Part shown: positions 1-59,110 of the stretch, in pieces
How positions within the stretch are numbered: the first letter of the stretch is position 1
How the letters are laid out: each line of letters starts with the position of its first letter
DNA from: Paracoccus sp. IB05
GTDB taxonomy: Bacteria > Pseudomonadota > Alphaproteobacteria > Rhodobacterales > Rhodobacteraceae
Direction: 5' to 3'
Assembly: GCF_016405985.1 (NCBI RefSeq)
Contig: NZ_JAEFCF010000014.1
Coordinates: 1 to 64,000 of the forward strand
Length of the DNA: 64,000 nucleotides
Position numbers and translations under genes: made by a program
Notes under the pieces: model-generated
What the model was told of the DNA's origin: nothing
The model's database searches: none
The model's input: the letters and a program-made list of their open reading frames with translations, nothing else

Positions 1-893
1 AATCCGTCTCGTTCAGCCAGGATCTGCTGGCCCATACCGAACGGCTGAAGGTGATTGCGGCGCTTTTGCCCGGCCCCTGGAACCCGGCGCTGGCGGCAAA
101 GCAAATCGCCACGATCAGCCATCTCTCGGGCGGGCGGATCGCGGTCAATGTGGTCTCGGGCTGGTTCAGGGGCGAGTTCGCGGCGATCGGCGAGCCCTGG
201 CTGGATCATGACGAGCGCTACCGCCGGTCCGAGGAATTCATCCGGGCGCTGCGCGGCATCTGGTCTGAGGAAAGCTTTACCTTCCGGGGCGATTTCTACC
301 GCTTCAACGACTATAGCCTGAAGCCCAAACCCGTTGATCCGCAACCGGAAATCTTCCAGGGCGGCTCGTCGCGCGCGGCGCGCGACATGGCGGCACGGGT
401 CTCGGACTGGTATTTCACCAATGGCAATACGCCGGAAGGGCTCGGCGCCCAGGTCGAAGACATCCGCACCAAAGCGGCGGCCAACGGGCATAAGGTGAAG
501 GTCGGCATCAACGCCTTCGCCATCGTGCGCGAGACCGAAGCCGAGGCCCAGGCGGTGCTGCGCGAGATCATCGCGAAGGCCAATCCCGAAGCCGTCCGGG
601 GCTTTGCCGGACAGGTGGTCAATGCCGGCCGCGCCAGCCCCGAGGGCGAGGGCAACTGGGCGAAATCCTCACTCGAGGACCTCGTGCAATATAATGACGG
701 CTTCCGCCCGAACCTGATCGGCACACCCGACCAGGTCGCCGAACGCATCACCGGCCTGAAAGAGGCCGGCGCCGACCTCGTGCTGCTGGGCTTCCTGCAT
801 TTCCAGGAAGAGGTCGAATACTTCGGCAAACACGTCCTCCCCCGCGTCCGCGCCATCGAAGCCCGCAAAAAACAAACCCTCGCCGCCGAATAA
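1..893 (+). CDS. sfnG: FMNH2-dependent dimethylsulfone monooxygenase-like (SfnG), 5' partial
   Basis: Luciferase-like flavin-dependent monooxygenase whose reading frame is open from base 3, so the true start lies left of the window; the GTG at 51 is internal. The visible part is about 297 residues and holds the hallmarks of the SfnG branch of the family: the stretch VIAALLPGPWNPALAAKQ, then GGRIAVNVVSGWFRGEF, HDERYRRSEEF and GGSSRAARDMAARVSDWY. SfnG enzymes take reduced flavin and O2 and convert dimethylsulfone to methanesulfinate. The gene is followed after 28 bases by a branched-chain-type ABC transporter on the same strand, which suggests that the transporter feeds this enzyme or a related organosulfur pathway. 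A related alkanesulfonate or nitrilotriacetate-type monooxygenase is the main alternative, but the sequence motifs favour SfnG. Confidence 0.8.
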   Translation, partial: SVSFSQDLLAHTERLKVIAALLPGPWNPALAAKQIATISHLSGGRIAVNVVSGWFRGEFAAIGEPWLDHDERYRRSEEFIRALRGIWSEESFTFRGDFYRFNDYSLKPKPVDPQPEIFQGGSSRAARDMAARVSDWYFTNGNTPEGLGAQVEDIRTKAAANGHKVKVGINAFAIVRETEAEAQAVLREIIAKANPEAVRGFAGQVVNAGRASPEGEGNWAKSSLEDLVQYNDGFRPNLIGTPDQVAERITGLKEAGADLVLLGFLHFQEEVEYFGKHVLPRVRAIEARKKQTLAAE

Positions 894-921
894 CGCGGCG
901 CCCTTCCCTCCGGAGACAGAA

Positions 922-1797
922 ATGACAGGCCTTGCCCTGAGCGAACCGGCCCTGCAGCCGGAGCGGCGCAGCTTTGCGTCCCGGATCGCCCCCGTGACGC
1001 CGGTCACGGCCAGCGCCGCGCCTGCCTTGCAGCTCAGCGGCATTTCGCTGGCTTTTGGTGGCATCCGTGCGCTGAAAGACGTGTCCTTCGATGTTCGCCC
1101 CGGCGAGATCCGGGCGGTGATCGGGCCGAATGGGGCGGGGAAATCCTCGCTGGTCAATGTGATCAGCGGGCTCTACCGCGCCGACACTGGCCGGATCGTG
1201 CTTGGCGGCGAAAGCTTTGCCCATGTGCCGCCCGGGCGCCTCCCGGGCCTCGGGGTGGCGCGGACCTTCCAGAATCTTGCGCTGTTTCCGGGGCTGAGCG
1301 TGGCCGAAAACATCGCCTCCGGCCTTGTGTTCCGCAGGCCCGCCTTTGCCTGGCTGCCCTTTCTTCCGGCCTCACGGCGCGAGGGGCGGGCGACTGCGAT
1401 CCGGGTGCGCGAGATCGCGGCATTCCTGGGGCTTGAGGCACATCTGCCGCGCCTGGTTTCGACCCTGCCCTTCGGCTTGCAAAAACAGGTGGAACTGGCC
1501 CGCGCCATGATCGCAGATCCGCGGCTTTTGCTGCTGGACGAGCCGATGGCCGGGCTGACCGGCACCGAGAAAGCCGCGATGGCGGCCCATATCCGCGCAA
1601 TCCGCGACCGGCTTGGCCTGTCGGTGATCCTGATCGAGCATGACATCGGTGTCGTGATGGGGCTTTCCGACCGTATCGTCGTGCTCGACCATGGCGAGGT
1701 GATCGCAGATGGCCGCCCCGATGAGGTGCGCCGCGACCCGGAGGTGATCCGGGCCTATCTCGGGCCTGACGCCGCGCCACTGGCGGGGGCCGCGTGA
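922..1797 (+). CDS. ABC transporter ATP-binding protein, LivG type
   Basis: 291 residues. Walker A GPNGAGKSS is near residues 68-76, and a Walker B segment LLLLDEPMAGL follows at about 200. The long Walker A to signature spacing and the EHDIGVVMGLSDRIVVLDHG ending are typical of LivG, one of the two ATPases of branched-chain amino-acid (HAAT) importers. About 35 residues precede the usual LivG start, so an internal start is possible. The stop codon overlaps the start of the next gene by one base. In this operon it should energise import of the same solute as the LivH, LivM, LivF and binding-protein partners; the sfnG neighbour points to a sulfur compound rather than an amino acid, which is inference. 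Confidence 0.9.
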   Translation: MTGLALSEPALQPERRSFASRIAPVTPVTASAAPALQLSGISLAFGGIRALKDVSFDVRPGEIRAVIGPNGAGKSSLVNVISGLYRADTGRIVLGGESFAHVPPGRLPGLGVARTFQNLALFPGLSVAENIASGLVFRRPAFAWLPFLPASRREGRATAIRVREIAAFLGLEAHLPRLVSTLPFGLQKQVELARAMIADPRLLLLDEPMAGLTGTEKAAMAAHIRAIRDRLGLSVILIEHDIGVVMGLSDRIVVLDHGEVIADGRPDEVRRDPEVIRAYLGPDAAPLAGAA

Positions 1798-2693
1798 TGG
1801 ACTGGTATGAATTTCTCTTCGTGATCGAGGTTGCGGTGGGCGGGCTGTTGTCGGGGGTGATGTACAGCCTTGTCGCCATCGGTTTCGTGCTGATCTACAA
1901 AACCTCGGGCGTGCTGAATTTCGCGCAAGGGGCGATGGTGCTGTTCGCGGCGCTGACCTTCGTGAGCCTGGTGGAGCGTGGGGTGCCCTTTGCCCTTGCC
2001 CTTGTGATCACGCTTTTGATCATGGGGCTGCTGGGGCTGGCGATTGAACGCACGGTGCTGCGCCCGCTGGCCAATCGCTCGCCGATGACGCTCTTCATGG
2101 CGACGCTGGGGCTGGCCTGGGTGATCGAAGGCGGCGCACAGCTGATCTGGGGCACCCAGGTCCATGCGCTGGATCTTGGCATCTCGAACGCGCCCTTCGA
2201 GATCGGCGGCATCTTCATCTCGAATTTCGACCTGGTGGCGGCGGCACTTGCGCTGGCGCTGGTCGTGGTCCTGACGAGCTTTTTCCGCTTCACCCGCACC
2301 GGGCTTTCTTTCCGCGCCGTGGCCGATGACACTTTCGCCGCAATTGCCATCGGGCTGAAACTGAACCGGATCCAGGCGGCGGTCTGGACCGCGGCCGGCG
2401 TGGTCGCACTGGTCGCCGGCCTTCTCTGGGGCGCGCGTCTCGGGGTTCAGTTCTCGCTGTCTCTCGTCGTGCTGAAAGCGCTGCCGGTGCTGGTGCTGGG
2501 CGGGTTCGACTCGGTCCCCGGCGCGATTGTCGCCGGGCTGATCATCGGCGCTTCCGAGAAACTCGCCGAAGTCTATCTTGGCCCCTATGTCGGCGGCGGG
2601 ATCGAGGGCTGGTTCGCCTATGTCGTGGCGCTTGCGGTGCTGCTGATCCGGCCGCAGGGCCTCTTCGGCCGCAAGATCACCGAGAGGTTCTGA
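1797..2693 (+). CDS. ABC transporter permease, LivH type
   Basis: 298 residues and almost entirely hydrophobic, with about eight membrane segments. The N-terminal block GGLLSGVMYSLVAIGFVLIY and the NFAQGAMV motif are those of the LivH inner-membrane permease. The motif VLGGFDSVPGAIVAGLIIG near residue 230 is the cytoplasmic loop that contacts the ATPase. ATG at 1797 overlaps the previous stop (TGATG), which supports translational coupling; a GTG three bases earlier is in the same frame. It should pair with the LivM-type permease that starts 4 bases after its end. Confidence 0.9.
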   Translation: MDWYEFLFVIEVAVGGLLSGVMYSLVAIGFVLIYKTSGVLNFAQGAMVLFAALTFVSLVERGVPFALALVITLLIMGLLGLAIERTVLRPLANRSPMTLFMATLGLAWVIEGGAQLIWGTQVHALDLGISNAPFEIGGIFISNFDLVAAALALALVVVLTSFFRFTRTGLSFRAVADDTFAAIAIGLKLNRIQAAVWTAAGVVALVAGLLWGARLGVQFSLSLVVLKALPVLVLGGFDSVPGAIVAGLIIGASEKLAEVYLGPYVGGGIEGWFAYVVALAVLLIRPQGLFGRKITERF

Positions 2694-2696
2694 GCC

Positions 2697-3734
2697 ATGT
2701 CACTCGCGGTTGAGGCGCCCGCGCGCCCGCTTCTCACTGGCCAGAGACTGGCGATCCTGGCCCTATTGGCCCTGGCATTCCTTGGCGTGCCGGCCTTCGC
2801 CTCGCCCTGGACGATTGAGGCGATCCTGCTGCCGTTCCTGGCGCTCTCGCTGGCGGGTCTGGGGCTTAATCTGCTCACGGGCTATGCGGGTCAGGTCTCG
2901 CTGGGGTCGGCTGCCTTCATGGCGGTCGGTGCCTATGCCGCGTTCAACATTCAGCTGCGGCTTGGCCTGCCTTTGCCGCTGACCTTCCTCTTCGCCTCGA
3001 CCACGGCGGCGGCGGTGGGGGTGATCTTTGGCCTGCCATCCCTGAGGCTTAAGGGCTTTTACCTCGCAGTCTCGACCCTGGCGGCGCAGTTCTTCCTCCA
3101 ATGGCTCTTCAACAAATTCGGCTGGTTCTCGAATTACAGCGCCTCGGGCGTGATCTCGGCCCCGGTCCTCGGCTTTGCCGGCATCACCTTTGACAGCCGC
3201 GAAAGCCGCTACCTGCTGGCGCTGACCACTGTCACCCTCATCACCATCTTCGTCCATCGCCTGGTGAACGGCCCGGCCCGCATCAACCTGATCGCCGTGC
3301 GCGACAATGAGACCGCCGCTAAGGTCATCGGCGTGCCCGTTTTGCGCACCAAACTGGCGGCCTTTGCATTGTCCTCAGCCATCATCGGGATTGCCGGGGT
3401 GCTGTGGTCTTTCACATATCTCAGGACCATCGAGCCCGAGGGGTTCAACCTCGACCGATCCTTCCAGATCCTGTTCATCGCGATCATCGGGGGGCTGGCG
3501 ACCCTTCGCGGCGCTTTCCTTGGCGCCGGGCTGATCGTGGTCTTTCCGCTGCTGCTTTCACGCGGCTCGGCCTGGATCTTTGACGGCGGGCTGGATGCCG
3601 GCTCGGTCCAGCTGACGCAGCGCATCGTCCTTGGTGCAACGATCGTCACCTTCCTGATCCTCGAGCCGAACGGGCTCTCCTCCATTCTCGACCGGGTCAC
3701 CGCCCGCGTCAGAAGCCTCATGGGCCGCACCTGA
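2697..3734 (+). CDS. ABC transporter permease, LivM type
   Basis: 345 residues with about nine to ten hydrophobic segments. NLLTGYAGQVSLGSAAFMAVGAY is the LivM signature and IIGGLATLRGAFLGAG is the ATPase-coupling loop. It is the second half of the permease pair of a branched-chain-type importer. It sits 3 bases after the LivH-type gene and 35 bases before the binding-protein gene, in the same operon. The substrate cannot be read from the permease; context with sfnG suggests an organosulfur solute. Confidence 0.9.
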   Translation: MSLAVEAPARPLLTGQRLAILALLALAFLGVPAFASPWTIEAILLPFLALSLAGLGLNLLTGYAGQVSLGSAAFMAVGAYAAFNIQLRLGLPLPLTFLFASTTAAAVGVIFGLPSLRLKGFYLAVSTLAAQFFLQWLFNKFGWFSNYSASGVISAPVLGFAGITFDSRESRYLLALTTVTLITIFVHRLVNGPARINLIAVRDNETAAKVIGVPVLRTKLAAFALSSAIIGIAGVLWSFTYLRTIEPEGFNLDRSFQILFIAIIGGLATLRGAFLGAGLIVVFPLLLSRGSAWIFDGGLDAGSVQLTQRIVLGATIVTFLILEPNGLSSILDRVTARVRSLMGRT

Positions 3735-3769
3735 GCCGCGCGCCCGTCCCCTTTTAAACCGGAGCAATC

Positions 3770-5107
3770 ATGTCCTTCTTCCGTCGCCTCGCGCCTGCCC
3801 TCCTGGCCGCAACCATCCTGACGGGCGCTATCGCCCCCGCCCATGCGGATGAGCAGTTCTTCCCGCTGCAATCCTATCGCGTCGGCCCCTATGCCGCCGG
3901 TGGCACCGGGTTTTTCGGTGGCTTCATCGACTATCTGACCCTGATCAATGACCGCGACGGCGGCGTGAATGGTGTGAGACTGACCTGGGCCGAGGGCGAG
4001 ACCGAATATGAGGTCGAAAAGGGCGTCGAGGTCTATCAGCGCCTGAAATCCACCCCCGGCATCGCCGCCTGGAACCCGCTTTCGGTGGGCATCGCCTATG
4101 CCATGATCGACGGCGTGACCGAAGACAAGGTACCGCTCCTGACGGTGAACCATGGCCGCACCGATACCACAGATGGCCGCGTCTTTCCTTACGTCTTCCC
4201 GCTTCTGCTGAACCCCTGGTCGGAAAGCTCGGGCATCGTGAATTACATCGCCGCGAAAGAAGGCGGGCTCGAGGCGCTGAAGGGCAAGAAGATCGTCGTC
4301 CTTTATCACGGCTCGCCCTATGGCAAGGAAACCATCCCGATCTATGAGCTGCTGGCCGAGAAATACGGCTTTCAGCTGATCCAGATCGAGGTGCCGCATC
4401 CGGGATCCGAGCAACAGGCGCAATGGCTGCAGATCCGGCGGGAGCGCCCGGATTATGTCGTGCTGCGCGGCTGGGGCGTGATGAACCCGGTGGCGCTGAC
4501 CACGGCGCAGAGGAACGGCTTCCCCGCCGACAGGATCATCGGCAATGTCTGGTCGAATTCCGAGGAAGACGTGCTTCCGGCCGGTGAGGCCGCGATTGGC
4601 TATACTGCCATCACCACCCAGGCCTCGGGCCAGGACTATCCGGTGCTGAAAGAGGTGATCGCCGGGGTCTATGACAAAGGCCAGGGCAACCTGTCGGACA
4701 AGGCGCGGATCGGCTCGGTCTACCACAATCTCGGCATCGTCAACGGCATCCTGAATGTCGAGGCGATCCGCATCGCCCAGGCCAGGTTCGGCAACCGGAC
4801 CCTGACCGGTGACGAGGTCCGCTGGGGATTTGAGCATCTCCGGCTGTCCCCGGAACGGGTGAAGGAACTTGGCGCCGAAGGGTTGTTCCATTCGATCAAC
4901 GTCACCTGGGACAACCACGAGGGCGAAGGCTACGTCACCTTCCAGCAATGGGATGGCAAGAAATGGAACGTGGTCTCGGACTGGATCGCGCCGGACTGGG
5001 CCTTGCTGCGCCCGATCATCGAGGCGTCCTCCGAAGCCTATGCCAAAGAAAAAGGTCTGACGATCCGCACCGAGGCCGATGTTGACACGGTGATCGGCCC
5101 GAACTGA
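3770..5107 (+). CDS. Periplasmic substrate-binding protein, LivJ-like (type I fold)
   Basis: 445 residues with a clear Sec signal peptide (RRLAPALLAATILTGAIAPAHA, cleavage after about residue 26). The mature start, EQFFPLQSYRVGPYAAGGTG, followed by LTLINDRDGGVNGVRLTWAEG, is typical of the large binding proteins that go with LivHMGF-type transporters. It is longer than LivJ (about 367 residues), as seen in family members that bind aromatic, amide or sulfur compounds. It lies inside the transporter operon. A perfect 10-bp hairpin follows its stop codon and may favour higher expression of this gene than of the ATPase after it. Ligand unknown. Confidence 0.88.
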   Translation: MSFFRRLAPALLAATILTGAIAPAHADEQFFPLQSYRVGPYAAGGTGFFGGFIDYLTLINDRDGGVNGVRLTWAEGETEYEVEKGVEVYQRLKSTPGIAAWNPLSVGIAYAMIDGVTEDKVPLLTVNHGRTDTTDGRVFPYVFPLLLNPWSESSGIVNYIAAKEGGLEALKGKKIVVLYHGSPYGKETIPIYELLAEKYGFQLIQIEVPHPGSEQQAQWLQIRRERPDYVVLRGWGVMNPVALTTAQRNGFPADRIIGNVWSNSEEDVLPAGEAAIGYTAITTQASGQDYPVLKEVIAGVYDKGQGNLSDKARIGSVYHNLGIVNGILNVEAIRIAQARFGNRTLTGDEVRWGFEHLRLSPERVKELGAEGLFHSINVTWDNHEGEGYVTFQQWDGKKWNVVSDWIAPDWALLRPIIEASSEAYAKEKGLTIRTEADVDTVIGPN

Positions 5108-28345: not shown

Positions 28346-28436
28346 CATTTTCTGTCTGAAAACACCTTCGGGGAGCAGCTGGTTTTGCCATTGGTTCAAA
28401 AAGCCAGCCGGCTGGGGGCGGAAAGCCCCCGGCGCT
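28346..28436 (-). repeat. Dispersed palindromic element, copy A (between allE and allA)
   Basis: Begins with ATTTTCTGTCTGAAAACACC then CGGGGAG, and ends in the hairpin GGGGGC-GGAAA-GCCCCC at 28414-28430. The layout (AT core, then GC hairpin) matches the copies at 38051 and 59042, with a longer spacer. It fills most of the 120-base gap between allE and allA. Confidence 0.6.
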
Positions 28437-28458: not shown

Positions 28459-28971
28459 ATGGAGATCCACCCAGACCCCCTGACACCGGACGCCTTCGCC
28501 CCCTTCGGCGACGTTCTTGAGGCAACCGGCCCCCACCGCCTGATCAATGACGGGCTCTGCCAGCGCCATCATGACCTTGCCCGTCTGGATTTCGGAGCCG
28601 GGACCGCCCCGCCCGGCCGCGCCGGCATCTCGGTTTTCAGCGCGGTCCCGCGCGCCCTGCCCTATGAATTCGACCTGATCGAGCGCCATCCTGAGGGCTC
28701 GCAGGCCTTCCTCCCGATGTCGGACCAGCCCTTCCTGGTGATTGTCGCAACGGACCCGGGCGCGGTGCCGCGCGCGTTTCTGACCAATGGCGCGCAGGGC
28801 GTGAACCTGCATCGCGGCACCTGGCACGGGGTGCTGACGCCGCTCGGCGCGCCGGGGCTGTTTGCGGTCGTGGACCGGATCGGGGAGAGCCGCAATCTCG
28901 AGGAATACCGCTATCCGCGCCCCTGGCTCGTGGTGAAAGCGGGGTTCCACCCCGCACCCCGGAGTATTTAG
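28459..28971 (+). CDS. allA: Ureidoglycolate lyase
   Basis: 170 residues. It starts LTPDAFAPFGDVLEATG and carries LHRGTWHGVLTPLGAPGLFAVVDR, the family's metal-binding region. AllA splits S-ureidoglycolate to glyoxylate and urea, the last step of this pathway. Its final codons, RSI and the TAG stop, lie inside a copy of the dispersed repeat (28951-28982), so the C-terminus appears to have been set by that element. It follows allE after 120 bases. Confidence 0.88.
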   Translation: MEIHPDPLTPDAFAPFGDVLEATGPHRLINDGLCQRHHDLARLDFGAGTAPPGRAGISVFSAVPRALPYEFDLIERHPEGSQAFLPMSDQPFLVIVATDPGAVPRAFLTNGAQGVNLHRGTWHGVLTPLGAPGLFAVVDRIGESRNLEEYRYPRPWLVVKAGFHPAPRSI

Positions 28972-28982
28972 GTCAAGAGGAA
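28951..28982 (+). repeat. Dispersed palindromic element, copy B (overlaps the allA stop)
   Basis: CCCGCACCCCGGAGTATTTA followed by GGTCAAGAGGAAG. It matches copy D in xdhB (CCCCCCGGAGTATTTCGCTCAAGAGGAAG) at most positions. The repeat contributes the last residues of AllA and its TAG stop. Confidence 0.65.
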
Positions 28983-28984
28983 GA

Positions 28985-37553: not shown

Positions 37554-38963
37554 ATGACCGGTATCAGTTTCTGGCTGAACGGAGTTGAAACCCAAATCCC
37601 GGAGGCCGAAAGCCCCACCCGGACGCTGCTCGACTGGCTGCGCGATACAGGCGGGCTGAAAGGCACGAAAGAGGGCTGCAACGAAGGCGATTGCGGCGCC
37701 TGTACCGTCATCCTGCGCGACGAGACCGGCGCCCGGGCGGTCAATGCCTGCATCCTCTTCCTGCCACAACTCAAAGGCAAAGCCATCCGCACCGTCGAAG
37801 GCATCACCGGCCCCAAAGGCGAGATGCACCCCGTCCAGCAGGCCATGATCACCCATCACGGCAGCCAATGCGGCTTTTGCACGCCGGGCTTCATCGCTTC
37901 GATGGCAGCCGCCCATCTGAATGGCGACCGGAACCACGATGACAGCCTCGCCGGCAATCTCTGCCGCTGCACCGGCTATGCCCCCATCATCCGCGCGGCC
38001 CGTGCGGCCGAAACCGCAGAAATCCCGCAATGGCTCGAAGAAGACGCCAATATTTTCTGTCCGGAAATATCCTCGGGGGGTGAGGCCCGTCCGGGCCGAG
38101 GGGGGCAGACAGCCCCCCTCTCGCCCACAACCACAGACGCCCTCGCCGCGCTTTACGCCGCCACGCCCGAGGCCACCCTGATCGCTGGTGCCACCGATAT
38201 CGGCCTTTGGGTCACCAAACAGCTGCGCAGGCTCTCGCCGGTCATTTTCCTGAACCAGATCAAAGAGCTGCAAGACATCACGGCAACGACCGAAGGGATG
38301 CGAATCGGCGCCATGGTCACCATTACCCGCCTGCGTGAAGCGGTGAAAACCAGCCACCCCGGCCTCGCAGAGCTCCTGCGCCGCTTCGCTTCGGCCCAGA
38401 TTCGCAACACCGCCACGATCGGCGGCAATATCGCCAATGGCTCGCCCATCGGCGACGGCCCGCCCGCGCTGATCGCCGCAGGGGCAATGCTGCATCTGCG
38501 CCAGGGCGACACCCGCCGCAGCCTCGCGCTTGAGGATTTCTTCCTCGATTACCGCAAACAAGACCGGCGCCCCGGCGAATTTGTCGAGGCGATCACCCTG
38601 CCCGCCGCCCCGGATCTGAGCTGCTACAAGGTCTCGAAACGCTTCGACCAGGATATTTCCGCGCTTTGCGGCTGTTTCAATATCACGGTAACCGGGGGCC
38701 GCATCTCCTCTGCCCGCATTGCTTTTGGCGGCATGGCCGCCATCCCGAAACGCGCGCGCGTGGCGGAGGCAGCGCTTATCGGCCAGGACTGGAACGAGAC
38801 GACCATCCGCCGCGCGATGCGGGCCATGACAGAGGATTACCAGCCGCTTTCCGATATGCGCGCCTCGGCCGGCTACCGGCTTACCGTCGCGCAAAACCTC
38901 TTGCTGCGTTGCTATTTTGAGCGTTCCGGCGTGGAAACCTCGGTGCTGAAGGTGGCACCATGA
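37554..38963 (+). CDS. xdhA: Xanthine dehydrogenase small subunit (2Fe-2S and FAD)
   Basis: 469 residues. The first [2Fe-2S] cluster is in CNEGDCGACTV (about residues 43-53), and the second is in GSQCGFCTPGF and LCRCTGYAPI (about 103-145). The FAD domain includes LIAGATDIGLWVTK and TIGGNIANGSPIGD. Between the iron-sulfur and FAD halves (about residues 166-189) sits an insertion encoded by copy C of the dispersed repeat at 38051-38120, in frame and in the loop that normally links the two domains. It transfers electrons from the molybdenum subunit to NAD. It is followed by xdhB with a 4-base overlap. Confidence 0.95.
   Translation: MTGISFWLNGVETQIPEAESPTRTLLDWLRDTGGLKGTKEGCNEGDCGACTVILRDETGARAVNACILFLPQLKGKAIRTVEGITGPKGEMHPVQQAMITHHGSQCGFCTPGFIASMAAAHLNGDRNHDDSLAGNLCRCTGYAPIIRAARAAETAEIPQWLEEDANIFCPEISSGGEARPGRGGQTAPLSPTTTDALAALYAATPEATLIAGATDIGLWVTKQLRRLSPVIFLNQIKELQDITATTEGMRIGAMVTITRLREAVKTSHPGLAELLRRFASAQIRNTATIGGNIANGSPIGDGPPALIAAGAMLHLRQGDTRRSLALEDFFLDYRKQDRRPGEFVEAITLPAAPDLSCYKVSKRFDQDISALCGCFNITVTGGRISSARIAFGGMAAIPKRARVAEAALIGQDWNETTIRRAMRAMTEDYQPLSDMRASAGYRLTVAQNLLLRCYFERSGVETSVLKVAP
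38051..38120 (+). repeat. Dispersed palindromic element, copy C, inside xdhA
   Basis: ATTTTCTGTCC, GGAAATATCC and TCGGGGGG are followed by a small hairpin GGCCC-GTCC-GGGCC and a strong one GAGGGGGGC-AGACA-GCCCCCCTC at 38098-38120. The same order (core, hairpin, hairpin with an AGA-type loop) is found in the non-coding copy E at 59042. Here it is read through in frame, giving a short Gly/Pro/Arg-rich linker in XdhA. Confidence 0.75.
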
Positions 38964-41404
38964 GCATCGGCAAACCCCTCCCCCATGATTCTGCGCCTTT
39001 GCATGTGGCGGGAACCGCGCGTTATCTCGACGACATCCCCTTGCCGCAAGGCGCGCTGCATCTGGCTTTTGGCCTGGCCGGCATCGCGCGCGGGCGGGTT
39101 GAAAGCATCGACCTCGCGCCGGTGCTGGCCGCGCCCGGTGTCGTCCGGGTGATTACGGCGCAAGAGCTGATCGCCGCTTTCGGCGCTGTGCCGGATTGCT
39201 CGCCCTCGACCCATGACGAGCCGCTGCTGAGCCCGGATGCGATCCATTTCCACGGCCAGCCGCTGTTCATCGTGCTGGCGGAAAGCCATCTCGCGGCGCG
39301 GCGGGCGGCGCGGCTGGCCCGCATCGACTATCACGAGGAAATCCCGATCCTGACCATTGAAGAGGCGCTGAAAGCTGACAGCCGCTTTGAACAGGGGCCA
39401 GTGATCTGGGCGCGGGGCGATGCGGCGGCGGCGATCGCAGCGGCGCCGCAGCGGATCGCGGGCCGCTTCCCGGTCGGCGGCCAGGAACATTTCTACCTTG
39501 AGGGCCAGATCGCGGCGGCGCTGCCGCAGGAAGACGGGATGCATATCCTGTCCTCGACCCAGCATCCAAGCGAGATCCAGCACAAGGTCGCCCATGCGCT
39601 CCATCTGCCGATGGCCGCGGTCCGGGTCGAGACAAGGCGGATGGGCGGCGGTTTCGGGGGCAAGGAAAGCCAGGGCAATGCGCTGGCGATTGCCTGCGCG
39701 GTGGCCGCGCGCCTGACCGGCCAGGCCTGCAAGATGCGCTATGACCGCGATGATGACATGGTCATCACCGGCAAGCGCCACGATCTCGAGATCCGCTACG
39801 AGGCGGGATTTGACGATGAAGGCCGGGTGCTTGGGATCTCGGTCACGCATCTCTTCCGCTGCGGCTGGAGTCAGGATCTGTCTTTGCCGGTGGCGGACCG
39901 GGCGATGCTGCATGCCGATAACTGCTATTTCCTGCGCGATATCCGCATCGAGAGCCATCGGCTGAAGACCAATACAGCCTCAGCCACCGCCTTTCGGGGC
40001 TTTGGCGGACCGCAGGGGATGATCGGGATCGAGCGGGTGATGGATCATATCGCCTTTACCCTCGGGCGCGAGCCGCTGGAGGTGCGGCGGGTCAATTTCT
40101 ACGAGGCGGCTGTCGCGGCAGCGGAGACGGAGGGCCAGCCCCGCGGCATGAACCAGGAGCCGGGGGGCCAGCCCCGCAGCATTTACCAGGAGCCGGGGGG
40201 CCAGCCCCCCGGGGCCCCCCGGAGTATTTCGCTCAAGAGGAAGGGAGAGATTCAGACCACGCCCTATCAGATGCCGGTTGAGGACTTCGTCGGGCAGGAG
40301 CTGGTGGCGCGGCTGGTGCAGAGTTCGGATTATCTGGCGCGGAAGGCGGAGATTGCCGCCTGGAATGCGGGGTCACAGGTTCTCAGGCGCGGGATTGCAC
40401 TGACGCCGGTGAAATTCGGCATCTCTTTTACGCTGACATGGCTGAACCAGGCGGGCGCGCTGGTACATGTCTACCAGGATGGCTCGGTGCATCTCAATCA
40501 CGGTGGCACCGAGATGGGCCAGGGTCTGAACCTCAAGGTGGCCCAGGTGGTGGCAGCGGTCTTCGGACTTGAGGCAGGCGATATCCGCATCACCGCGACC
40601 GACACGGCGAAAGTGCCCAATACCTCGGCTACGGCGGCCTCGTCAGGGTCGGATCTGAACGGGATGGCGTCGCGCGAGGCGGCGCTGGTGATCCGGGGGC
40701 GGATGGCCGCGTTTCTGGCCGAAAAGCACCAGGTCGCGCCGGAGGCGGTGCGGTTCCAGGACGGGCTGGTGCGGGTGGCGGGCGAGGAATATCCCTTTGC
40801 CAGGGTCGCGGCCTGGGCCTATCAGGCGCGAATCCCGCTGTCTTCGACCGGCTTCTATGCCACGCCGAAAATCACCTGGGACCGGGTGAAGGGCCAGGGG
40901 CGGCCGTTTTTGTACTTCGCCTATGGCGCTGCGGTCAGCGAGGTGGTGATCGATTGCCTGACCGGCGAAAACCGGATTTTGCGCACCGACATCCTGCATG
41001 ACACCGGATCGCCGCTGAACCCGGCGATTGATATCGGCCAGATCGAGGGCGCCTATGTTCAGGGCGCGGGCTGGCTCACGACCGAAGAACTGGTCTGGGA
41101 CGGCAAGGGCCGGCTGATGACCCATGCGCCCTCGACCTATAAGATCCCGGCCTGTTCCGACCGCCCGCCTGTCTTCAATGTGGAGCTGTGGAACCGGCCC
41201 AATCGTGAAGCGACGGTGGGGCGATCAAAGGCAGTGGGCGAGCCGCCTTTCATGCTGGGGATCTCGGTCCATGCCGCTTTGTCGGCGGCTGTGGCGGCCT
41301 GTGGCGCAGATGGCGGGGATGAACGGGTCTGGCCCGATCTGGCGGCGCCGGCGACGCCGGAGGCGGTGCTGGCAGCGGTGGAAAGGGTCAGGCGCGATGT
41401 TTGA
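38960..41404 (+). CDS. xdhB: Xanthine dehydrogenase large subunit (molybdenum cofactor)
   Basis: 814 residues. The molybdopterin-binding pattern is visible in GGQEHFYLEGQIAAALP near residue 172, RRMGGGFGGKESQ near 228, TATAFRGFGGPQG near 338, and the later TSATAASSGSDLNG. The active-site glutamate of this family is expected in KAVGEPPFMLG near the C-terminus. It oxidises hypoxanthine and xanthine to urate in the cytoplasm. Residues of about 389-428 form an insertion, encoded by 40124-40245, with two and a half copies of an 11-residue unit EPGGQPRSIYQ followed by a basic stretch. The start overlaps xdhA and the end overlaps xdhC. Confidence 0.95.
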   Translation: MSIGKPLPHDSAPLHVAGTARYLDDIPLPQGALHLAFGLAGIARGRVESIDLAPVLAAPGVVRVITAQELIAAFGAVPDCSPSTHDEPLLSPDAIHFHGQPLFIVLAESHLAARRAARLARIDYHEEIPILTIEEALKADSRFEQGPVIWARGDAAAAIAAAPQRIAGRFPVGGQEHFYLEGQIAAALPQEDGMHILSSTQHPSEIQHKVAHALHLPMAAVRVETRRMGGGFGGKESQGNALAIACAVAARLTGQACKMRYDRDDDMVITGKRHDLEIRYEAGFDDEGRVLGISVTHLFRCGWSQDLSLPVADRAMLHADNCYFLRDIRIESHRLKTNTASATAFRGFGGPQGMIGIERVMDHIAFTLGREPLEVRRVNFYEAAVAAAETEGQPRGMNQEPGGQPRSIYQEPGGQPPGAPRSISLKRKGEIQTTPYQMPVEDFVGQELVARLVQSSDYLARKAEIAAWNAGSQVLRRGIALTPVKFGISFTLTWLNQAGALVHVYQDGSVHLNHGGTEMGQGLNLKVAQVVAAVFGLEAGDIRITATDTAKVPNTSATAASSGSDLNGMASREAALVIRGRMAAFLAEKHQVAPEAVRFQDGLVRVAGEEYPFARVAAWAYQARIPLSSTGFYATPKITWDRVKGQGRPFLYFAYGAAVSEVVIDCLTGENRILRTDILHDTGSPLNPAIDIGQIEGAYVQGAGWLTTEELVWDGKGRLMTHAPSTYKIPACSDRPPVFNVELWNRPNREATVGRSKAVGEPPFMLGISVHAALSAAVAACGADGGDERVWPDLAAPATPEAVLAAVERVRRDV
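40124..40245 (+). repeat. Dispersed palindromic element, copy D, with 33-bp tandem array inside xdhB
   Basis: Units at 40124-40156, 40157-40189 and from 40190 share GAGCCGGGGGGCCAGCCCCG as a core with a 33-base period, so the reading frame is preserved. The last unit runs into GGGGCCCC and then CCGGAGTATTTCGCTCAAGA, which matches copy B after allA. In reverse complement it aligns with the AAATAnnCCGGGGG core of copies C and E. Confidence 0.75.
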
Positions 41405-56839: not shown

Positions 56840-56916
56840 TGGTGATCCCGACAGGACTTGAACCTGTAACCTGCCCCTTAGGAGGGGGCTGCTCTATCCA
56901 GTTGAGCCACGGGACC
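56840..56916 (-). tRNA. tRNA-Arg (anticodon CCU)
   Basis: 77 bases including an encoded CCA. The acceptor stem GGTCCCG pairs with CGGGATC (one G-T pair), the D arm reads GGCTCAACTGGATAGAGC, the anticodon arm is GCCCC-CTCCTAA-GGGGC with anticodon CCT, and the T arm is ACAGG-TTCAAGT-CCTGT. It decodes AGG. Its 3' end faces an integrase gene, and this tRNA is a known site for integration of genomic islands. Confidence 0.97.
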
Positions 56917-59041: not shown

Positions 59042-59110
59042 CATTTTCTGTCCTTAAATATCCCGGGGGAGGCGCCCCGCAAGGGGCGCCGGGGGCAGAG
59101 CCCCCTTTTT
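59042..59110 (+). repeat. Dispersed palindromic element, copy E (non-coding)
   Basis: ATTTTCTGTCCTTAAATATC and CCGGGGGA are followed by hairpin GGCGCCCC-GCAA-GGGGCGCC (59071-59090) and hairpin GGGGGC-AGA-GCCCCC (59091-59105) with TTTTT. It lies between the M3 peptidase and the amino-acid permease genes, both on the minus strand. The last hairpin and T-run would terminate plus-strand transcripts, but no plus-strand gene ends here. It shares its whole order of parts with copy C inside xdhA. Confidence 0.75.

Follow-up and report, generated by a model that had tools for sequence, protein, structure and literature searches.

A two-hairpin repeat translated within xdhA of Paracoccus sp. IB05 and a coordinated change of its head motif across the genome

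The xdhA element and the other coding copies

The window, by which is meant the whole stretch of 64,000 nucleotides of Paracoccus sp. IB05 DNA that was analysed, contains genes for two subunits of xanthine dehydrogenase, each with a palindromic element in its coding sequence (Table 1). The xdhA product, which matches 2w3r_A at 8e-185, has the Pfam domains Fer2, Fer2_2 (residues 80-149), FAD_binding_5 (residues 189-351) and CO_deh_flav_C. An earlier note, made from the letters of the window, had described the element as a 23-residue linker piece between the iron-sulfur and FAD domains, and the domain boundaries place it there. The order and positions of its blocks, given in that note for 38051-38120, are borne out, and the copy at 59043-59106 has its parts in matching order. 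The xdhA copy has RNA fold z-scores of -2.66 (element strand) and -2.52 (opposite strand), and the copy at 59043 has -2.23 and -1.37, respectively.

In the AlphaFold model of XdhA, which is of moderate quality (mean pLDDT 69.9), residues 165-185 score below 50 and are without secondary structure; since residues 18-82 are equally poor, likewise below 50, this at most hints at a disordered linker. The solved XdhA chain of 2W3R (Rhodobacter capsulatus, as is 1JRO) carries FTLAQLSSGVRGQTAP in the corresponding linker, and we read this stretch as probably being translated element.

Table 1. Coordinates of genes and repeat copies in the window
Feature	Position	Strand	Basis
Decayed copy: new head ATTTTCTGTC, then changed core AAAACACC-TTCGGGG; few bases after a TGA	28347..28376	+	
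Further member of the AAATACTCC sub-family, head and core only (CTTCCTCTTGACCT-AAATACTCCGGGG)	28957..28983	-	
xdhA ORF, 469 aa, 2Fe-2S and FAD subunit of xanthine dehydrogenase	37554..38963	+	Pfam, homology
Coding palindromic element, XdhA residues 167-189 (IFCPEISSGGEARPGRGGQTAPL), between Fer2_2 and FAD domains	38052..38120	+	
10-nt head ATTTTCTGTC of the xdhA element	38052..38061	+	
Block ATTTTCTGTCC of the xdhA element	38052-38062	+	
Core AAATATCC of the xdhA element, three bases after the head	38065..38072	+	
G6 run in the xdhA element	38075-38080	+	
Hairpin 1 of the xdhA element, GGCCC-GTCC-GGGCC	38084..38097	+	
Hairpin 2 of the xdhA element, GAGGGGGGC-AGACA-GCCCCCCTC	38098..38120	+	
xdhB ORF, 814 aa, molybdopterin subunit	38960..41404	+	Pfam, homology
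Coding copy of the second sub-family in xdhB (core AAATACTCC, head CTTCCTCTTGA), antisense to the gene	40186..40243	-	
Core of the xdhB copy	40217-40229	-	
tRNA gene	56843-56916	-	
Intergenic, non-coding element: head, core and both hairpins, hairpin 2 having a T run	59043..59106	+	

That xdhB is also hit, as the earlier note had it, holds good. In the xdhB linker (window 40133-40243) extra imperfect hairpin repeats, QPRGMNQEPGGQPRSIYQEPGGQPPGAPRSIS, lie at about 40133-40185, just before the element in the direction of the gene, and the hairpin repeats in the xdhB linkers of G007 and G003 (G-numbers denoting compared genomes) are shorter than those of IB05. The xdhA head recurs in a third coding copy, which lies in a 3.3-kb cobN-like gene (Pfam CobN-Mg_chel) on IB05 contig C31; this in-frame copy (FLSENILGSHPSGPGGAEGPRPGAT) is within the gene at 455-3778 of locus L135. 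In all three genes, xdhA, xdhB and the cobN-like one, the frame is open through the element, the translation being read from the sequence. Altogether, 6 of 100 cores are inside genes called by a home-made gene caller. The other four are without a head (L105, L134) or near called gene starts (L080, L140), and for these reasons just the xdhA and cobN-like copies are counted as clear cases of the first sub-family.

The repeat family at gene ends and in enzyme linkers

The IB05 genome (5.29 Mb in 108 contigs) has 113 matches to the core pattern AAATATCCNSGGGG when up to one mismatch is allowed, versus 1 for the reversed pattern; the further copies, genome-wide and inside genes, that the earlier note had anticipated are present. 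A BLAST-type search of the same genome with an 86-bp query gave at least 51 matches at E<=10 with 40 of 85 candidates scored, and 42 of these, the query itself counted, have E<0.01. Exact matches to a wider core pattern, one or more, are present in 238 of 295 Rhodobacteraceae genomes, a sample in which each genus is represented once; they number 1 to 145 in each, control matches number 0-2 per strand, and the lowest of these counts may be due to chance. Chance low complexity is ruled out by the copy counts, the reversed controls and homology, and the xdhA segment is confirmed as a member of a two-hairpin repeat family of the Rhodobacteraceae. A search of the window against Rfam at gathering scores gave the tRNA only and no family for the element, searches of the open-access literature yielded no description of this repeat family (the earlier note had likewise been aware of no described family in Rhodobacterales), and a term search of PMC3733652 gave no match for this group.

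The 100 cores in the stretches around the core matches listed and in the window were analysed for their surroundings, and 95 of them have a recognisable head. With gene orientation taken from a purpose-built codon-likelihood gene caller, set up without annotation as reference, gaps of at least 40 nt that contain an element are convergent in 30 cases, co-directional in 53 and divergent in 4, versus 22, 115 and 50 for gaps without an element, so that convergent gaps are enriched and divergent ones depleted (chi-square P 2e-7). In 59 of the 95 copies it is the hairpin side that faces a gene 3′ end, the median distance to the core start being 60 nt, and the head side does so in 62. Many copies are paired head to head, the partner having a second body type (core, then CCGCCGGAGGC), and the IB05 genome has 38 inverted pairs. 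This placement at gene 3′ ends is one likeness to intrinsic terminators, another being that GC hairpins near stop codons are followed by GGATATTT on the element's minus strand, on which the two hairpins come first. Most copies have the shape and position of bidirectional transcription terminators, and may well act as such. The 10-nt head and core common to copies and the occurrence of copies inside genes are differences from intrinsic terminators. Termination does not explain the orientation of the element in genes, since the XdhB copies sit in the sense-terminator orientation, which would be expected to be avoided.

For the survey of the XdhA linker the best 30 loci from 60 relatives (45 with a match) and the best 80 of 576 named loci were combined, and the resulting 110 were reduced to 107 by leaving out two duplicates and the frameshifted locus of G012. 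(In that locus, L053, shortened G runs within the element shift the frame, due either to homopolymer sequencing error or to real loss.) Among these 107 nearest loci the element is in the linker of 43, comprising 32 by a strict rule and 11 decayed copies recognised by eye; 58 are without it and 6 are uncertain. The earlier note had proposed to see whether residues 166-189 are absent from most relatives; on these numbers the pattern is not one of simple absence, and a recent single insertion private to the IB05 genome is ruled out. By record title the strict carriers are from at least 11 genera, Pseudogemmobacter, Pseudorhodobacter, Rhodobacter, Roseovarius, Gemmobacter, Marivita, Ruegeria, Tranquillimonas, Actibacterium, Roseobacter and Thalassovita, several of the records being metagenome-assembled. 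Of two Ruegeria lacuscaerulensis records (L172, L176), one has the element in its XdhA linker and the other has a short unrelated stretch.

Strand and frame are largely constant. No core in minus orientation was present in the XdhA linkers surveyed, and 28 of the 32 strict copies are in frame 1, 3 (of a single clade) in frame 0 and 1 in frame 2, with the core of 16 of the 28 frame-1 copies at an identical codon distance from a conserved Trp/His. Perfect stems of at least 7 bp are found in 27 of the 32 strict copies versus 6% of 160 control stretches from the same genes, and in 15% of 61 XdhA linkers without a core match. On an XdhA tree made with linker columns removed, the distribution of the element cannot be explained with fewer than 22 changes, of which well-supported branches force 11, compared with 33 for shuffles. 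Presence is thus clustered, yet the element has come or gone many times, and either many losses or some events of re-insertion have to be accepted. For XdhB, 102 loci yielded 29 strict and 15 loose elements, of which the loose class may include chance matches, and 58 loci have none; all 44 elements are on the minus strand and 43 are in one frame. Several XdhB linkers have the second body type, and sub-families vary between genera.

The proposal in the earlier note of a dispersed palindromic element in frame in variable linkers of both subunits is supported by these surveys, and its description as mobile-looking stands with regard to dispersal. Less well supported is a fresh mobile insertion, which the element does not resemble given its occurrence in at least 11 genera on one strand and mostly in one frame, 56 orthologous pairs of copies with G007, the concerted sequence change dealt with below and the lack of a PF01797 match in IB05. 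Conservation of these residues in distant genera, which that note had named as a refutation, gave an unexpected answer, in that the linker residues vary and it is the element that persists, often in the version local to the genome. In-frame, translated palindromic repeats in unrelated genes, judged here by open frames, are a likeness to the Rickettsia palindromic elements (RPEs; PMC10969869, PMC2635572). RPEs are about 150 bp with nearly half in ORFs (PMC10969869); the present element differs in being about 65-70 bp, in having most copies at gene ends and in its coordinated rewriting across sites.

A head motif changed in coordination

Pairing of orthologous copies by their flanking DNA gave 56 pairs between IB05 and G007. 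At 54 of these sites the IB05 head matches ATTTTCTGTC with at most 1 mismatch and the G007 head matches TTCATCTGTC with at most 2, and at 48, including the xdhA copy, the switch is exact on both sides. One of the two remaining pairs, with a changed core, has the old head, i.e. the TTCATCTGTC type, in both genomes, and the other has an odd head in IB05 and the new one in G007; when restricted to exact cores, none of 51 pairs has identical heads. Where an inverted partner is present in both genomes, its head too is new in IB05 and old in G007 at 24 of 25 sites. The xdhA element has TTCATCTGTC in the orthologues of G007, G003 and G012, and the encoded residues are N-I-F-C in IB05 and D- or G-F-I-C in relatives. 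One motif has been changed in coordination at nearly all tested sites, the coding copy included, with the cores and most of the hairpins kept.

Counts of exact heads, new and old respectively, are 140 and 12 in the whole IB05 genome, 44 and 108 in G012, 12 and 135 in G007, 7 and 142 in G003, 4 and 86 in G008, and 12 and 45 in G011, with reversed controls giving 0-3 per strand. From these counts the old type is the likely ancestor, and a few new heads are present in the other genomes. Of 94 headed copies in IB05, 3 retain the old head. Between G007 and G003, both of which are old-head genomes, 15 of 17 heads are identical.

Core identity at the 56 sites is 99% and body identity 87.5%, orthologous bodies scoring 0.85 versus 0.56 when shuffled; for comparison, IB05 and G007 are 80% identical at third codon positions of XdhA, the linker excluded, and about 92-93% in the flanks. 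Turnover of the three bases between head and core has outpaced that of third codon positions. Spacers between paired heads resemble each other across IB05 and G007 no better than shuffled ones do (P 0.19 with 24 pairs; with 25 pairs, 17 of 200 shuffles), e.g. those of L075, L115 and L315 are unrelated despite about 92-93% identity in the flanks. Within one genome spacers vary by site, yet the short words that they have in common exceed those of shuffled ones. An origin of the new head by simple TTT insertion is rejected, the length difference at partnerless sites being variable by eye. Restriction of the switch to intact copies was also dropped because, although an earlier, too strict hairpin rule gave P 0.037, the corrected one gives P 0.18, and the decayed copy at 28347 bears the new head.

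The mixed heads of G012 might be taken as a genome caught in mid-switch. That possibility is rejected since they are mostly explained by a mosaic of IB05-like and G007-like ancestry: flanks of sites with the new head are nearer to IB05 in 14 of 14 cases, and flanks of sites with the old head are nearer to G007 in 12 of 18 and nearer to IB05 in 6. Among the stretches examined, inverted pairs in G012 are concordant in 14 of 14 cases, although in one pair the old head is slightly altered. This suggests exchange of whole loci between lineages in the case of G012, and not conversion in progress.

On a broader scale, each genome has heads that are much alike and that are unlike those of other genomes, and its XdhA copy as a rule carries the local version. 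Local heads are, for instance, TTTCATCTCTT in G017, TTCTTCTGTCC in G014 and CTTCCTCTCTGC in G009, the last being the main one of two types there. Nine XdhA heads fit the other copies of their own genome better than under permuted assignments (P 0.0012), the nine genomes being related and, for that reason, not independent. The head matrices were made from 9-10 other copies per genome (from draws of 10 out of 99 for IB05), which may include coding ones and of which a few are poor elements. The matched genome ranked 1, 4, 4, 2, 6, 2, 1, 1 and 1 for the nine heads, with ties arising because G007, G003, G008 and G011 have one head in common. G011 is an exception, its XdhA head being from a sub-family absent among the G011 copies sampled.

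What may keep the copies in step

The account that we put forward, and hold with belief and doubt in about equal measure, is that the xdhA copy is an old in-frame insertion kept in step with its family by homogenisation in place, most likely by ectopic gene conversion. There would have been one old insertion per linker followed by many losses. Translated copies in the linkers of XdhA, XdhB and the CobN-like protein would be tolerated because these linkers, judging from their variability, are probably little constrained. As its most likely engine we propose ectopic gene conversion over short tracts, or else copying with one repeat as the template for another, possibly initiated at hairpins that stall or break replication. 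Such conversion would update sequence while strand, frame and position stay as they were, and so would explain why XdhA copies across genera have a common strand, mostly a common frame and often the local version. It is favored because strand, frame and place are kept and because the xdhA copy, which is away from gene ends, follows too. Neither a single conversion event nor a donor copy was caught in the genomes compared. The new, site-specific spacers are left unexplained by it, and as spacers are unlike between IB05 and G007 and vary by site, a copied block is not the whole story. The further step, that a dispersed repeat is rewritten in place at well over a hundred coding and non-coding sites alike and that this amounts to molecular drive on proteins, with some residues of metabolic enzymes following the dialect of a repeat family instead of selection on themselves, via copying that is outside both RAYT transposition and uptake sequences, is proposed tentatively, as a possibility less probable than not.

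Near invariance of the head within a genome, together with its difference between genomes, would also be expected if a protein or RNA acting in trans binds it. After a change in the specificity of such a factor, selection would have altered some 140 sites one at a time, coding ones included. The matching of inverted partners in all 14 G012 pairs examined is in accord with this, as is the finding that a head precedes a core in 130 of 132 examined among the 140 of IB05 (125 of 126 in stretches chosen, for the most part, because of a core or a place in the window, and 5 of 6 among heads picked as having no known core). However, at least 3 matching substitutions would be needed at each of 78 tested heads (54 plus 24) in a period over which the third codon positions of XdhA have kept the identity given above, copies with a changed core have switched too, and a function at gene ends provides no reason for the xdhA copy, located elsewhere, to follow. 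A binding factor seems rather unlikely on these grounds.

A mobile system that has gone unrecognised, with new copies landing on or beside old ones and bringing their own heads, is unlikely. Recurrent insertion or replacement of this type would account for the patchy presence in XdhA with its many changes on the tree, for sub-families with different bodies in one XdhB linker in different genera, and for the replacement of spacers along with heads. Against it, orthologous bodies are alike to the extent described above and strand and frame hardly vary in XdhA and XdhB. REP elements and their derivatives are the relevant known comparison, and REPINs are doublets of REP hairpins (PMC3116915); about 100 hairpin repeats, with many inverted pairs having a variable middle, are a likeness to the REP, BIME and REPIN systems. 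Unlike those, the present copies are at orthologous sites in relatives, and GTAG/CTAC occurs anywhere within 90 nt in only 4 of 95. (CGTC/GACG, the tag of the other REP super-family, occurs at any place within the 90 nt in 31 of 95.) A search with the one family PF01797, that of the RAYT Y1 transposase, gave no match in the IB05 genome versus matches in 5 of 14 controls, and RAYT mobilisation is rejected due to the lack of such a gene in IB05.

As to DNA uptake, uptake-sequence copies in Neisseria far exceed the approximately 140 counted here. That the head signals uptake or exchange, by transformation or gene transfer agents, with transfer between strains bringing one version near to fixation, is quite improbable for that reason and since the head is rarely free of a core (2 of the 132 examined, on which basis a free-standing uptake sequence is rejected), even though G012 suggests locus-wise exchange between IB05-like and G007-like lineages and a short motif with lineage dialects, inverted terminator pairs and intragenic copies is described for uptake sequences (PMC3630211). 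The likeness to the dialects of the DNA uptake sequence in Neisseriaceae (PMC3630211) is in a lineage-specific, genome-wide motif with these same arrangements; the motif here differs in being tied to a fixed core plus two GC hairpins, and it is not known to have a role in uptake.

Protein-coding palindromic elements are best known from Rickettsia, and here one recurs in fixed linkers of a single enzyme in many genera of a large bacterial family that has cultivable members. The availability of orthologous sites in relatives reveals a repeat family changing in concert, a coding copy included, and makes the old question of how bacterial repeat families stay uniform testable, given an engineered head and a small number of strains. 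If the account given is true, part of a protein's sequence would be set by a copying process that is genome-wide.
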